A DNA stretch of 64,000 nt, from NCBI RefSeq assembly GCF_004365095.1, contig NZ_SOCN01000002.1:1-64000 (forward strand), written 5' to 3'. How positions within the stretch are numbered: position 1 is the stretch's first letter; every line of letters begins with the position of its first letter. A program made the translations under genes and the position numbers. This DNA comes from Mycoplasmopsis mustelae (lineage in GTDB: Bacteria; Bacillota_I; Bacilli_A; Mycoplasmatales; Metamycoplasmataceae). Positions 2,940 to 56,435 of the stretch are shown piece by piece. Below the pieces are notes generated by a model. The model was not told where the DNA came from and searched no databases. It worked only from the letters and a program-made list of their open reading frames with translations.

Positions 2940-3640
2940 AAAGTTATTTAAAGACTGTTAGGGGGTGTTTAGGTGTTTAGATATATAAAAAATGCTCTCT
3001 ATAAAAGAAAGCATCCACAGTGCCTCGCGAATTTACAAAATCGCTTAATCAAGTAAAGATGAGTTCGCACCAGTGATTTAGAGTAAATACTTAGATCTAC
3101 TACAATATTATTATACCATAAATTAGGTGGGCTATCGTAGGTGTTTAAATGATGTGAATATATTAAAAGAAAGTAAAAGGGGGGTGGGTGTAGTGTTGGC
3201 TGTGAAATAGGGGGTGGTAGTTGGTGTATATAATATAGGGGGGAGTTGGTTGGTAGATGTGAGTGTAGATGTAATAAAATAAAAAAAGCTTTAAAAAGTT
3301 GTGAAATTTTCGTGTTAGGTAAGTATAGGGGGGATGATAAAAAAATAGGATTTTTCCTTTTCACCCCAACGCGCCCCCATTTGTGCAATTTTTTCAAATT
3401 TTGAAAATTAGACTTTTAAGGGGTTCAACTTTCTCCTTTTTTAAGGTCTTTTGAAACTCCATTTTTTGTGTTTTATAACAAAATGTGGTATGTTTCCACA
3501 TTTCAAACCCCTAATTTAAGTGAAAAAATAGGGGGGTACAGGTGAAAAATTTAAGACATTAGGAACTCAAAAATAACTCGAGTCGATTCCAAAAAAACCC
3601 CCGTTTTTTCACTTGACCCCCCGTTTTTTTCACTTATAAT
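2940..3640. other. Strand-skewed G-rich region with short repeats, gene-free
   Basis: From about 2955 to 3340 the plus strand is very rich in G runs and poor in C, unlike anything else in the window. Downstream, CCCCCGTTTTTTCACTT (3598-3614) and CCCCCCGTTTTTTTCACTT (3617-3635) are tandem direct repeats, and AAGTGAAAAAATAGGGGGG (3518-3536) is an inverted copy. A minus-strand ORF across 2999-3397 exists but looks like a consequence of base skew. Position next to the terminase genes suggests a packaging (cos/pac) or replication origin site; this is inference. Confidence 0.45.
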
Positions 3641-48878: not shown

Positions 48879-48908
48879 AAATAGATAACACTCGCGCGCT
48901 ATCTATTT
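48879..48908 (-). terminator. Terminator of the ABC transporter operon
   Basis: AAATAGATA (48879-48887) pairs with TATCTATTT (48900-48908) around a GC-rich loop; a short T-run follows on the minus strand. The stop of the permease gene lies inside it. Confidence 0.65.
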
Positions 48909-50560
48909 CACTTAGAAATTTTCAAAAGACTTTTTGTCGTAAATAGCTTAATCTTTTCAAAAACTTCTCTTTTATATAATAAAAATAAGATTTCAAAAAT
49001 TGCATAAATTAAAAATGCTGGTAGAAATGCTGGTCCAATTTTTTCATATTCTGAGTTTTTAATATATTCATTAATATATGCATATAAGACAACATTACTA
49101 AAGATTCCAAATGTTATAAAGTTTCTAAAAGTTCCTTCGCTCTTGAATAAAACTAATGATACAATTGCTTTTTTATACATTGGTAGTAAAAGATTTCAAT
49201 AAATATAAAAATTGTTATACCCAAGCGATTTTCATAATTGTACTTTCGATTTATCTATACGGTTAATAACTTCTGAAAACTGCTTTGTTAAAGACCTAAA
49301 AGTAATAATAATAACTGCAATAATAATTGCTGTATCTTTATTTAGCAATGAGTTAAATAAAATAAAAAAGACGATAACCGGAATTGCTTTTAGTAAGACA
49401 ACAATCACCTTGAAAACGAAAGTAAAATGCAATTTATATAATTTTTCACTCATAAATAATGCATATATAAGTGATAAAAAGTACGAAACATAAACTACAA
49501 TATAAGTTTGTTGAAAAATTTTTCAATAAGAAAGATACAAATTCGGGTTTTCTTGCACCCCGCTAAAATCTCAATTAAATAAATTTTGTAATCAAATTCT
49601 TAATGATATGGTATTTGCACTAGTTTTAGAAATGTCTGCAAAACTAATAATAACGATAATTAAAAAGATAATAAAAATTGTTAATTTAATGAGCTTTTTA
49701 AAATTATATTTTCAACTTTTTGGAGTATTGATATCAGGTTTATTAATGTCGCTAGCAACAAATAAGTATTTATTAAAAAAGATTAATAATAGTTCAAAAA
49801 AGATAATAACAACTACAATGTAAAAAATACTAATTCCGTAGTATTCAATATTATTCGGATAAGTATTAAAAAGTTGTCCAATTCCATAAATTCCAATTGA
49901 ACCTAAAATTGAACTTCATCTGATGTTAGTCTCAAGTGTAAGCAGTGAATTCATTATGAATTTGTTTTTATTATTTAAAACAATATTTTTATAAAAACTT
50001 TTAAAACGCGGCATTCCTTGATGAATATCCATTCAATATTTTTGAGTTGAAGTAGACTCAAAAATATCACAAAAATAGCGATGCAAATAAACTCATGAAG
50101 TAAATCAAAAAATCATAAAAGCTATCATTTGGCCTTCGTAGGCAGAACCAAATATCATGATAAAAATCAAAACAGGCAAAGAGCGCAATAGAATAATTAA
50201 AAGCCGAATACATCAGGTTCATCAATTACGTTTTCATAGATTTAATGAACTAAAATAAGCAGTAATAAAAGCTAAAATTAAACCTATAAAACTACCACTG
50301 AATACTGATTTAATTGTTATTCACATTAAATTCAAGTTTATATATCATAAATTCAATACATTATCATTATTAATAACAACAATACTTTTAAAAGAAAATA
50401 ATTCTTTTAAATGTGTAAAAAATAAATTTGTTCCTGTTTTAGTTATATAAAAATTGAAAGTATGTAAAAAATATATAAAAATCAAAAATAAAGCTAAAGT
50501 TACAAACCATTTTAAGATAGTTTTTTTAGTTAATTTTTGATGAAATTTTTGTCTAGTCAA
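48899..50560 (-). CDS. ABC transporter permease (p69-type, PhnE-like fusion)
   Basis: 553 residues with about twelve hydrophobic segments in two halves, each like one PhnE/BPD permease. The segment RSLPVLIFIMIFGSA and later LLKAIPVIVFFILFNS are the paired positions, and SLGYNNFYIYWNLLLPMYKKA holds an EAA-like loop. It resembles P69 of the Mycoplasma hyorhinis p37 operon. Start is a TTG at 50560 with AAGG upstream, overlapping the ATPase gene. All Trp codons but few are TGA. Confidence 0.8.
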
Positions 50561-51395
50561 AATACAACCTTAATTCATCTAAATCGTATTCATTAGGATG
50601 ATATATTTTTTGTATTTTTCCGTCCTTGAGAGCAATAATTTTATCCATATACTTAACAGCATCGTTTAAGTTATGTAATGCTACTACAATATATTTATCG
50701 CTTTTAATTTTTTGTAAATATTCAAAAACTAATTGTGCATTAGTAATATCTAAATTTGATGTTAATTCATCACACAGCAGAATTTCGGGATCGTTAATTA
50801 AATTCAAAATTATTGCAAAACGTTGTTTTTGTCCAGCAGAAAGCTGCTCAACTGGTTTAAAAATATAATCTTGCATTCCAAAATATTCACACATTTGATA
50901 TAAATTATCTTTTTGTTGTTTAGTTAAAATTTTTAAAAATTTGTAAAAAGGGTTTTTATATTTTTTAAAAGTTAATTTAAAGTTAGTATAAAAATCAATA
51001 GATGTAATCAAATTGTCATCGGGTGCTATATAATTAATTTTTTTCTTATATTTTTTAATTTCTGCTTTACTAAAATATTCATTTAAAGTATTTTTATATA
51101 GTTTTACGACGTTTTTAAGAGAGCTTTGTTTAAATAATTTTTTAAATTTGGTAAAATAACCTTTAAAATCATTTTTTTTATTAGTTTTTTTGATTTTAAC
51201 AACTTTTTTGTCGTTATACCAAAATTCACCATCTTTAATTAAACTAAAATCAAAAAATGCTTTAAGAATGGTGCTTTTACCAGTTCCACTTTTTCCGATT
51301 AAGCCTATTATAGAATTTTTTTTCACATGTATACTTACATTATCTAAAATAACTTGGTCACTATATTGTAACACTATATCATTAAATTTAATCAT
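50553..51395 (-). CDS. ABC transporter ATP-binding protein (p29-type)
   Basis: 280 residues. Walker A GLIGKSGTGKSTILK, signature QLSAGQKQRFAI (a variant of LSGGQ), Walker B EILLCDELTSNLD, and switch His in VVALHNLND. A Lys-rich insert of about 50 residues follows Walker A. It resembles P29 of the M. hyorhinis p37 system and PhnC. ATG is coupled through TAATG to the p37 stop. Confidence 0.88.
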   Translation of the reverse strand: MIKFNDIVLQYSDQVILDNVSIHVKKNSIIGLIGKSGTGKSTILKAFFDFSLIKDGEFWYNDKKVVKIKKTNKKNDFKGYFTKFKKLFKQSSLKNVVKLYKNTLNEYFSKAEIKKYKKKINYIAPDDNLITSIDFYTNFKLTFKKYKNPFYKFLKILTKQQKDNLYQMCEYFGMQDYIFKPVEQLSAGQKQRFAIILNLINDPEILLCDELTSNLDITNAQLVFEYLQKIKSDKYIVVALHNLNDAVKYMDKIIALKDGKIQKIYHPNEYDLDELRLYFD

Positions 51396-52879
51396 TATCT
51401 ATCTAATACTTCTTTAGCAATATTTCAAAATTCAGATTCAACATCTTTAATTTCAAAATAACCAAAAAATCCATTTGTTATAGCACCAATATCTTTATGT
51501 TCTTTAGATAATTTCATCATAACTTTAGAAATCACAGAAATTACATTTGGATCAACTTCTTTACCAAAAACTCCTACAAAATACGGTAATGCTTCAGTAA
51601 CTGTTAATACTTCTAAATTTTGATTTGGTCTTAAGTCCTTATTTATAAAATAAGTATCTCGTCCATCCGCTTTATATGGAGTTCAAGCTCATGAGGGTAT
51701 ATTATCAAAAAAGATATGTTTGTTTAAGTATTGAGCTTGATGAACTCCTTTAATTGAACCTGTAGTTATATTGTTGTGATGTTTGCTATTTACATCAATT
51801 TGATATGTCTTTAAATCTCTAAATTTTTCTTTAAAATGTTTCTTTAATAAACTGTTTTGTAAAATATATTTTGCACCGGAGTTTGAATCACCAGTAACTA
51901 TTCCATAACTTAAAAATGTATCCCAGTCTCTTTGATTTCAAGCCTTTTTAATTGCAGCACGTTGTGCTTCGGTACCAATCAAAATAATTGAACCACGATT
52001 GTACGGAACTAAATTATCTCTATTATAAACATCCTGATAAATAGAACCATTTCAGTGATAATCATTATTTCATTCACTTCTAGGTTCACCATAAAAAACT
52101 TCATTAACATTACGAGCTATTTTTGTTAAATCATCATTTCAGCTTCCATCGCTATATTTACCATTTATTGGATTTTTAAAATCAAATTTAATATCGCCAC
52201 GAAATTGACGTGCTAAAGTCTGTAATTTAATTTGAAAACCAGCATTAATAATATCGTTTTTTTTATCTCATAAAAAACCAGTAGGCAAAAATGCCATATC
52301 AGCTTCTTTTTTAACTAAATTATCATATGAAGCATTAAAATTTTCGGCCCCATAAAACTGAATTTTTACCGTTAGTTTATTATTAGAGTTTTTTAATAAA
52401 TCGTTGATTTGTTTTTCAGCTTCTTTTCGAACTTGTTCTTGTGTTTTGCCGTTTAAAGCATAACTTTGTGGAGTTGAAAATGTTAATTTTAAAGTATGTT
52501 CTGTTGTAATTAAATTTTTTGGAATTTCTATTTGTTCTGTCCCGAAATTTGAATTAGTTAAAAATTTATCACCTATACCTCGATAAAATTCTTTAGTTAA
52601 TTGTTGCACCAACTCTTTAATTTGAGAATTTTGTCGATAGATTTCATTTAAAATCACATCTTGTTTAGTTGCTTCTTTTTCGACTTTTGCTTTATTTAAA
52701 ATACTTTGATATTTGTTTAATTCTGCGGGTGATAAAGCAGCTTCTAATGCATTAATTTGATTTGAATATAACGCTTTTTGTTGCGATTCAGTAGTTTGAT
52801 TTGTTCCACATGAAGCAGCAACTAATAAAGTTGGTGTAAATGAAATAATTGCAATTTTCAATAGTTTTTTCATTTTCAT
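51395..52879 (-). CDS. p37/Cypl-type substrate-binding lipoprotein
   Basis: 494 residues, ATG 52879 after TAGGAG. Signal MKMKKLLKIAIISFTPTLLV with lipobox VAASC. An extra Gln/Glu-rich helical region (about residues 25-100) precedes a periplasmic-binding-type body: KEADMAFLPTGFL, GSIILIGTEAQ, FLSYGIVTGDSNSG and IPSWAWTPYKADGRD. The last parts are typical of p37/Cypl, which binds thiamine diphosphate in M. hyorhinis, and of PhnD proteins. It delivers the substrate to the p29/p69 components encoded downstream. Confidence 0.85.
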
Positions 52880-52897
52880 ATTCTCTCCTAATATCAA

Positions 52898-53698: not shown

Positions 53699-53704
53699 TA
53701 CAAT
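53699..53704 (+). promoter_or_regulatory. -10 element of the pepF leader transcript
   Basis: TACAAT at 53699-53704, upstream of a long leader; TTTT-rich DNA replaces a -35. Confidence 0.4.
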
Positions 53705-53725
53705 TAATTTTATGAAAAAAGGAAA

Positions 53726-53800
53726 ACAACAAGTTATTATGACTAATATTAACAGTTGAATGTATATTATCAACCGTTATTTTTAGTCATAATCTGTTGT
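53726..53800 (+). other. Long imperfect hairpin at the 5' end of the pepF leader
   Basis: ACAACA, ATTATGACTAA and AAC/GTTGA on the left arm pair in order with TCAAC/GTT, TTAGTCATAAT and TGTTGT on the right. The total stem is more than 20 pairs with small bulges. It also overlaps a possible 24-codon ORF (ATG 53713, MKKGKQQVIM...). Function unknown; it could stabilise the leader or interact with the riboswitch. Confidence 0.55.
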
Positions 53801-53837
53801 ATTAATATAACAGATGAGACGATAAAAAGAGTTCAAA

Positions 53838-54012
53838 TCTGTTATAGATACTACTATAGAGGAGCTTTTAGCAATAGTAATTAACCTAGTGGGCATGCAG
53901 AAGTTAATGAAAGGGTATAAAAGCCGAAACTAAGATAATGGCAGTTATTTTGGTTGGTAGAAAAACATAAAAGATTTCTACTCTTTGGATTTTCCATTGG
54001 TGCTATAGATTT
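53838..54012 (+). promoter_or_regulatory. Lysine riboswitch (L-box)-like aptamer
   Basis: Conserved L-box pieces occur in order: ATAGAGGAGC (53856-53865), AGTA (53875-53878), GAAAGGG (53909-53915) and AGCCGAA (53922-53928). A hairpin AACTAAGATAA/TTATTTTGGTT follows, then GTTGGTAG, a GTAGAAA/TTTCTAC hairpin, and GGTGCTATAG (53999-54008) to close P1. Lysine-sensing is inferred from this match; it is not shown. A terminator stands between it and pepF. Confidence 0.7.
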
Positions 54013-54046
54013 ACAGTTCATTAAAGTTAATATTTCACTTTAAATT

Positions 54047-54085
54047 AAAAAAGTCTTGTAAATCTACAGTTTATAAGACTTTTTT
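54047..54085 (+). terminator. Riboswitch-controlled terminator before pepF
   Basis: AAAAAAGTCTTGTAAA (54047-54062) pairs with TTTATAAGACTTTTTT (54070-54085). TATAGATTTACA (54005-54016), the end of the aptamer, can instead pair with TGTAAATCTA in the left arm and loop. This gives mutually exclusive terminator and antiterminator forms. Confidence 0.8.
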
Positions 54086-54105
54086 CATAACTTTTAGGAG
54101 TAACA

Positions 54106-55935
54106 ATGAATGCAAAGCAATTTAAAAATCACAGCGATGTTCCTGAGGAATATACTTGAGATTTAGAAGACATTTTAAAAGGCGATTCGATTGAAAATTT
54201 AATCGATAAATATCATAAGGTAAGAAAAGAAAGAATTTTAAATAAAGATAAAAAATATGAAAATATTGAAGCATACTTAAATGACGTAAAATTATCAGAG
54301 CAAGAAACAATTTTATCATTTAAGATAGATAACTACATTTCCAACCACTTAAATACTGATTTAGTTAATGCAAAATTTAAAAAATTAGAAGCTGAATTTC
54401 AATTCTTAAATCATAAATTAAACACTACGTTCGGTTCAGAAACTAACAGATTTTATGCAAATATAGAAAAAATGAAACTATGAATGAATGATCGAAGATT
54501 AGCTTCATATCGAAGACAAATCCAAGATGAAATTGACGAATATGAACATAAATTAGACGATAAGGTTGAAGAATATATCATCAATAGTTCGTTCGGATTT
54601 CCTAGTCCGCATAATACATTTAGTATTTTAAGCAACAGTGAGTTGGATTACGGGATAGTAACAAGTAAGACAGGCAAAAAGATTAAACTCAATCCGGCAA
54701 TCTATTCTAAATTATTAAAGTCAAACGACGAACAAGTTCGTAAGCAAGCATATCACAATTATTGAAACGCTTTTATTAAACACAAAGACACATTTGCAGA
54801 ATTGTTATTTCAACACTTTAAAAGCATCACTACTGAAGCAAAATTACGTAAATATACCTCTGCTGTAGCGATGTTAACTTCAAAAGACAAGGTAACAGAT
54901 GAAATTTTGAAGAAGCTCTTTAGCAAGGTTTCTGAAAGTAAACAAATATTAAAAAAATACAAAAAATGAAGTGATAAATTTTATCAAATCAAATTTAAAT
55001 CTAGGCGTCAACTATGAGACTATTCACGTGATTTAGTAAGTGTAAAAACTTCTTACACAGTCTCAGAAATGAATGAATTAGCCAAAACAGCACTAAAACC
55101 ATTTGGTCAAGAATATCACCAACAAGTTTGTAAAGCCATCGATGAAAAATGAGTGGATTATATGAGCACCGACACCAAGCGTGGTGGTGCATATAGCATC
55201 GGTGGAACCTATGGTATAGATAAAAAATACATTTTAATGAATTTTGAAGGAACGCTAGCTAGCGTTGAAACTTTAGTGCACGAACTAGGTCATTCAATGC
55301 ATTCGTATTTTTCTGATACTAGACAAGATTTACAAAATTCAATGTATCCAATTTTTTTAGCTGAAATTGCATCAATTTATAATGAATTTATGTTAGCTGA
55401 TTATATGTTAAAAACTAGTACTGATAAAAAATTAAAATTTGAAATTTTAAACTCTATGATTCAAGGATTTATAGGAACCGTTTTAAAACAAACAAGTTGA
55501 GCTAACTATGAATACGATTTATATAATGCAATTGCAAACGGCAGTGTCTCAGGAAGTTTTGATTCAATTAGCAAACTTTATTACACTAATAGTCAAAAAT
55601 ATACCTTAGTTCCACAAAAATATTCTGTTCAAACAAGTATTCAATCCATTTATGTTCCACATTACTATTATGGATTTTATGTTTATAAATATGCAATTGG
55701 TCAATTAGTTGCTACCTATTTCTTTAGAAAATATAAAACCCAAGGCAAGACCGCGTTAGATGACTATATCAACAACTTTTTAAGTGCCGGAGGGAATGAT
55801 TATCCACTTAATATACTTAAAAAAGTCGGTGTAGATTTAACTACTGATAAATTCTACGATAATGGTTTAACTTTCCTAAAAGAATTAGTTGATGAATGAT
55901 TACAATTAGGAAAGGAAATTTTTAAAGTAAAATAA
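54106..55935 (+). CDS. pepF: Oligoendopeptidase F
   Basis: 609 residues, usual family length, ATG 54106 after TAGGAG. N-terminal [16 protein letters not shown] is the classical PepF opening. The catalytic [12 protein letters not shown] (HExxH zinc site) lies near residue 390 with the third ligand in [26 protein letters not shown] forms the conserved end. It is a cytosolic zinc M3 peptidase cutting imported short peptides. Expression appears to be controlled by the lysine-type leader, so it may be raised when lysine is scarce. Confidence 0.94.
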
Positions 55936-55988: not shown

Positions 55989-56435
55989 ATGAATAAGTGA
56001 TTTAAAAAATTTATGATACATACTAAATACCAATTACAAAGCACACGATTTTGAATAATTAACATTATATACGCATTAATTTTTAGCATTATTGTGGTTG
56101 TTTGATATTTTACAAAAGGTAATAAACAACTTTTAGATTCTTTTACTGCCGCTAGTATCATAATTTTTTGTTTAGTACTATTTATCTTGATTTTTAAATG
56201 AGGTTTTTTAGAAAGAACAATCCAAAAATTCAATGAAAATCAAAGTATTTCTAAAAAATACTCCGAAGAACGTAAATTAGCTAAAATGGACGCAATAGAA
56301 CGTAAAATATATTTAGAACAAAAACAAAACAAACATAAGCAAAAACATAAACCAAAATCAAACTATGTTTTTTATTTAAATCTCTTTATTTATTTAATTG
56401 TTCTTATTATAATCATTATTTTAAACTATGTTTAA
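55989..56435 (+). CDS. Small membrane protein of unknown function
   Basis: 148 residues; ATG 55989 with AAGGAAAAC upstream. Membrane segments near residues 22-42, 58-80 and 126-147, with a charged Lys/Gln-rich loop between the second and third. Several Trp codons are TGA. It resembles three-helix membrane proteins common in mycoplasmas; no function seen. Confidence 0.7.

Follow-up and report, generated by a model that had tools for sequence, protein, structure and literature searches.

Lysine riboswitches (L-boxes; Rfam family RF00168) located upstream of oligoendopeptidase F genes in Mycoplasma were already described in a 2017 survey (PMC5584792), in which a clustered membrane gene was left as an unidentified transporter and whose text contains no leader, attenuator or terminator wording. 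The riboswitch of M. hominis found in the literature responds to thiamine pyrophosphate (TPP), and the open-access literature yielded no earlier report of lysine-riboswitch control of opp or oppA in mycoplasmas, nor of leader-peptide attenuation in mycoplasmas or other Mollicutes. The locus considered here is the leader of pepF, the gene for oligoendopeptidase F, in Mycoplasmopsis mustelae; it lies within a stretch of 64,000 nucleotides (contig NZ_SOCN01000002.1, positions 1 to 64,000), referred to below as the window. The association of a lysine riboswitch with pepF is not new, and what goes beyond the survey is the view of a regulon and the presence of a second module upstream of the aptamer. 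The pepF leader probably comprises two stacked controls, namely a ribosome-read attenuator module at its 5' end and an OFF-type lysine riboswitch at its 3' end.

The 3' element is, with near certainty as judged from its sequence, a lysine riboswitch. The RF00168 covariance model matches 53849-54013(+) over its full length (model positions 1-182) with 73.8 bits compared to a gathering score of 30 (E-value 6.8e-19 with 2 kb searched and 2.2e-17 with the whole window searched). The closing strands of P1, CTATAG/CTATAG, occupy 53854-53859 and 54003-54008, and the AGAGG, GCCGAA and P1 3' motifs are found in this aptamer as in each of the 53 aptamers examined. The aptamer is followed by an intrinsic terminator at 54047-54085(+), an AU-rich 17-bp stem whose 3' arm leads into a T run (-15.6 kcal/mol, z -7.4) and which escaped the consensus scan because the latter demands three G-C pairs. 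The 3' strand of P1 together with its extension, GCTATAGATTTACAG (54002-54016), pairs with TTGTAAATCTACAGT (54056-54070) as an antiterminator. Since TTGTAAATCTACAGT reaches into the terminator, where it overlaps both the loop and the 5' arm, the two structures are mutually exclusive. The antiterminator couples the expression platform to P1, drawing on the P1 3' strand as well as on the arm of the terminator; an automatic search recovered the antiterminator in 43 of the 53 loci. In such an OFF-type switch, bound lysine would hold P1 together, allowing the terminator to form and turning pepF off, and in the absence of lysine the P1 3' strand would enter the antiterminator and pepF would be on. 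That the aptamer is a relic, or has changed its ligand so that lysine is no longer sensed, is extremely improbable in view of aptamers that score between 59 and 84 bits throughout the genus, the invariant AGAGG and GCCGAA motifs, and targets that comprise an amino-acid permease and peptide import.

The controlled gene is preceded by a Shine-Dalgarno sequence, AGGAG, at 54096-54100(+), and pepF itself (54106-55935(+), 609 amino acids) is open only if TGA is read as tryptophan, as it is in the window. Its product matches TIGR00181 with 503.5 bits, above the equivalog cut-off of 490.55, and Pfam Peptidase_M3 (PF01432) with an E-value of 3.5e-57; searching named genomes with PepF assigns relatives to Mycoplasmopsis. 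The earlier note on this DNA, which had proposed from the letters alone a lysine-type riboswitch with L-box elements, a P1 closing strand and exclusive antiterminator/terminator pairing in front of oligoendopeptidase F, has therefore been borne out in all these respects, including the covariance-model check that it suggested.

The upstream module is built around a short upstream open reading frame (uORF) at 53712-53786(+), which encodes MKKGKQQVIMTNINSWMYIINRYF (TGA read as tryptophan) and is apparently leaderless; the -10 promoter hexamer TACAAT (53699-53704) ends 7 nucleotides before its ATG. When the 230 nucleotides 5' of every aptamer were read, with candidates chosen by spacing and length, equivalent uORFs of 18-29 codons were identified at 45 of the 53 lysine-riboswitch loci of the genus, and at nearly all of them a TATAAT-like -10 element sits 6, 7 or 9 nucleotides before the ATG. 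The encoded peptides are rich in Ile (22 %), Asn (15 %), Met (7.7 %, compared to 1.1 % in the downstream genes) and Arg (6.9 %), and contain almost no Gly, Asp, Glu or Pro; all four of the abundant residues are enriched relative to both the downstream genes and shuffled nucleotides. Codon use was assessed in 53 non-redundant uORFs, with riboswitch-linked and riboswitch-free examples pooled. Among these, frame 0 is enriched in ATG, CGT, AAC and ATT, with ATG accounting for 8.0 % of codons in frame versus 1.3 % and 0.7 % in the other frames, and CGT for 3.1 % versus 0.3 % and 0.4 %. ATA is avoided (0.5 %, compared to 18.8 % for ATT), Ile and Asn occur in every one of the peptides, and an internal Met is present in 50. 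A role of the leader peptide as a lysine sensor was considered and rejected: lysine makes up 9.0 % of the uORF residues versus 8.4 % in the downstream genes, and is therefore not singled out.

The uORF is embedded in a set of alternative pairings that ends directly before the aptamer. Region 1 (53727-53746(+)), inside the uORF, forms the 5' arm of a long hairpin with region 2 (53783-53801(+)), which contains the uORF stop codon and has the core ATCTGTTGTA at 53792-53801, so that the reading frame folds onto the sequence 3' of its own stop. Region 3, TATAACAGAT (53806-53815(+)), can pair either with region 2 (-9.6 kcal/mol) or with region 4, ATCTGTTATA (53837-53846(+); -10.4 kcal/mol), the latter pairing being the second hairpin, immediately in front of the aptamer. 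The long hairpin (53726-53803; -23.2 kcal/mol, z -5.5) had been described in the earlier note as an extra structure preceding the aptamer; it is real, and it appears to be part of a second regulatory module. Likewise, the span of 53726-54105 given there for the element does contain the riboswitch, but its start falls inside the uORF and hairpin, and the whole leader begins near 53712.

Mutually exclusive 1:2, 2:3 and 3:4 helices are thus present in the window, and a strand shared by 2:3 and 3:4 recurs in most leaders. The motifs that carry the pairing differ by group, being ATCTGTT/AACAGAT/ATCTGTT in the group of the window, TACCTG/CAGGTA/ACCTGC in another group and TGTGTCTG/CAGACACA/TGTGTCTG in a third. 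Compared with dinucleotide shuffles, the shared-strand arrangement reaches p<=0.05 in 44/53 leaders, and the window leader gives 0.005, the floor of the test. A shared-strand score of at least 20 is attained by 57 % of the leaders versus 0.4 % of 800 segments from the same window, and the uORF at 53712 is the only one in the 64 kb whose score passes 17. In 41 of the 53 leaders, the main partner of region 2 lies in the uORF, the median z of that hairpin being -2.4. The codon use suggests that the reading frame is real, which would also be expected if the uORF encoded a small protein with a function of its own, regulated by the hairpins directly or in its translation. Such a role is very improbable, because across species the peptides resemble each other in composition but not in sequence, and because the pairing arms lie partly within the frame.

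The module also occurs without the riboswitch. In several genomes devoid of RF00168 the uORF is retained in the opp leader, as in G035, where MNTRTIFAQNMIIKNFIKIALMIIS is followed by a terminator-like 3:4 helix of 13 pairs with a T-rich tail, identified by independent terminator detection. An automatic count detected a U-tract after 3:4 in 12/53 leaders, among them those of G013, G037 and G040 and three that are riboswitch-free (G024, G034 and G035). The 3:4 helix looks like an intrinsic terminator in some relatives and not in the window, whose leader is built like a leader-peptide attenuator without being classed as a member.

On the basis of this architecture, the upstream module is likely to be a leader-peptide attenuator. 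The transcript would start at or near the ATG of the Ile-, Asn-, Met- and Arg-rich uORF. A ribosome stalled within the uORF would cover region 1 and favour 2:3, and a ribosome that has reached the uORF stop would cover region 2 and permit 3:4. As 3:4 is a U-tailed terminator in several relatives, a shortage of Ile, Asn, Met or Arg would there favour read-through. Both controls would then serve the supply of lysine and other amino acids from peptides, via PepF and the Opp importer.

Several observations weigh against the stacked-control explanation. The 3:4 helix of the window and its group, like that of most leaders, has no U-tract. By the picking rule, no uORF is present at eight of the 53 riboswitch loci, the riboswitch loci of other genera are devoid of it as well, and the absence of in-frame stops from the uORFs follows from the construction of that rule. 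The peptides are alike in composition, with an amino-acid order that is poorly conserved between species, and a weak substitution test of the Ka/Ks type on eight close pairs, with few substitutions, gave 18 non-synonymous changes versus 22.4 expected. For the shared strand, Fisher's method yields 6e-47 over the leaders, a value that overstates independence and should be read with caution, given the relatedness of the species. Several riboswitch-free leaders score poorly or on a helix other than the one read by eye; five with a similar appearance by eye (G015, G044, G001, G011 and G041) were not counted, since the helices picked there by the automatic test were different or longer ones.

The scarcity of U-tracts and the weak conservation of the peptide, together with the stability of the hairpins, would suit a leader regulated by the riboswitch alone, with an open frame that is incidental or tolerated and with upstream hairpins of a structural kind, which might for example protect the mRNA 5' end or insulate the fold of the aptamer. 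This explanation is unlikely, since it accounts neither for the frame-specific codon use and the fixed spacing between the -10 element and the ATG, nor for the 2:3/3:4 shared strand in unlike sequences and the U-tailed 3:4 hairpins of relatives. It is slightly less likely still that a trp-type attenuator operates in the clades with a U-tailed 3:4 and has degenerated in the clade of the window, where only the riboswitch would work. The U-tract of G013, G037, G040 and others, which is missing from the window, fits this scenario. A possible substitute read-out, in which region 4 would act as a switch by pairing with post-aptamer sequence, was rejected (p<=0.05 at 2/43 loci, median p 0.60), and its failure is likewise compatible with degeneration. 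Nevertheless, both pairings persist at the floor of p in the window and in most of its group, whereas neutral decay should have erased them. Two stacked controls remain the preferred explanation of the pepF leader.

The genes controlled by the riboswitch point to a shared physiological purpose. RF00168 was detected in 42/61 Mycoplasmopsis genomes, with 53 matches in total, and the genes 3' of it are mostly pepF-oppABCDF or oppABCDF, pepF and opp forming one operon in many relatives; further targets include stand-alone pepF, genes for large lipoproteins or PDxFFG-type surface proteins, and a single amino-acid permease gene. PepF is encoded in 53/61 genomes of the genus and OppB-like proteins in 56/61. 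In the genome of the window, pepF and opp are apart, with a lysine riboswitch before each. The second of these (G000:C1:431903-432067(-), L002 1501-1665(-)) precedes oppABCDF, and its leader carries its own uORF, MKKVKQQISMTYADRRRNFNTYRLF, and hairpins. The OppA encoded there matches NF045850 with 649 bits, OppB and OppC match BPD_transp_1, and OppD matches ABC_tran and oligo_HPY. The earlier idea that a peptidase is a logical target in an organism acquiring lysine from peptides is strengthened by this second riboswitch before oppABCDF and by the placement of pepF and opp behind one riboswitch in relatives. In other genera of the same family, the upstream uORF is missing from the riboswitch loci, whose targets are pepF-opp, opp or an amino-acid-permease-like gene, and no convincing uORF of this kind was found upstream of the stand-alone pepF genes of relatives.

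Judged from its targets, the lysine riboswitch belongs to a peptide-import regulon, in which lysine shortage would turn on peptide import and digestion in organisms living on host peptides. It also seems reasonably probable, although held with somewhat less confidence than the two-control structure of the pepF leader, that this Mycoplasmopsis regulon is governed by a leader with two inputs, in which a multi-amino-acid attenuator, apparently leaderless, is stacked before the lysine riboswitch, and that the same attenuator, as an independent module, also stands alone before opp in riboswitch-free species. If so, a leader-peptide attenuator would exist in Mollicutes, and the serial arrangement of attenuator and riboswitch would allow a single leader to balance lysine against other amino acids. 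The many natural variants, with or without the riboswitch and with or without the U-tract, make this logic directly testable.

Some riboswitch loci have unusual surroundings. Riboswitch and uORF module precede a lipoprotein of about 1065 amino acids in L036 (5244-8447(-)), with equivalents in G049 and G055; the L036 protein has no family match except a sub-threshold coiled-coil. In L080 (232-4287(-)) and L064 (G003), the riboswitch is located before large PDxFFG surface proteins with an HEYGH motif, of which the L080 protein, the one tested, matches NF012210; these are perhaps surface metallopeptidases supplying peptides. Two lysine riboswitches in series are present in L044, L058 and L062 (G004, G006 and G005, respectively), of which the first lacks a uORF and precedes repeat-rich lipoproteins and the second has a uORF and is followed by oppA. 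In G019 the riboswitch is present twice (L077 and L078), the upstream flanks of the two copies being identical, and many stops interrupt the pepF behind the contig 2 copy.

Within the window, pepF is followed by a gene for a 148-amino-acid membrane protein (55989-56435(+)), whose Pfam matches are all sub-threshold and which may correspond to the conserved membrane gene that PMC5584792 mentions. An ABC transporter set (48899-52897(-)) divergent from the pepF leader comprises a lipoprotein, an ATPase and a double permease, and by eye it resembles phosphonate-type importers. Farther away, a phage-like block of open reading frames at 3927-36620, in which terminase, portal and capsid-like proteins, a tyrosine recombinase, a DNA polymerase and methyltransferases were recognized by eye, looks like an integrated prophage, and a DUF3800-I RNA (RF02969) is matched at 2981-3102(-) with 48 bits versus a threshold of 44.2.

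With known lysine riboswitches, the window leader shares a full-length aptamer far above the gathering score and an OFF-type terminator/antiterminator platform; it differs from the usual L-box in that its targets act in the hydrolysis and import of peptides and not in lysine synthesis, and in the second module that precedes it. The short open reading frame, the exclusive 1:2, 2:3 and 3:4 helices and the stop codon in region 2 are features of the trp, his and ilv attenuators, as is the 3:4 terminator of some relatives. Unlike these attenuators, the window leader has an apparently leaderless start, a mixed Ile/Asn/Met/Arg composition, a 3:4 helix without a U-tract and a riboswitch directly behind it. 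The closest parallels for the combination are the mgt leaders. Although these involve other ligands, other genes and another phylum, and mgtA works via Rho, which Mollicutes lack (PMC8346122), the tandem attenuators of the Salmonella mgtCBR leader (PMC3641672) and the MgtL open reading frame with the Mg2+ element of the mgtA leader (PMC8346122) likewise join, within one leader, a short open reading frame to a further sensor, the two answering different signals.
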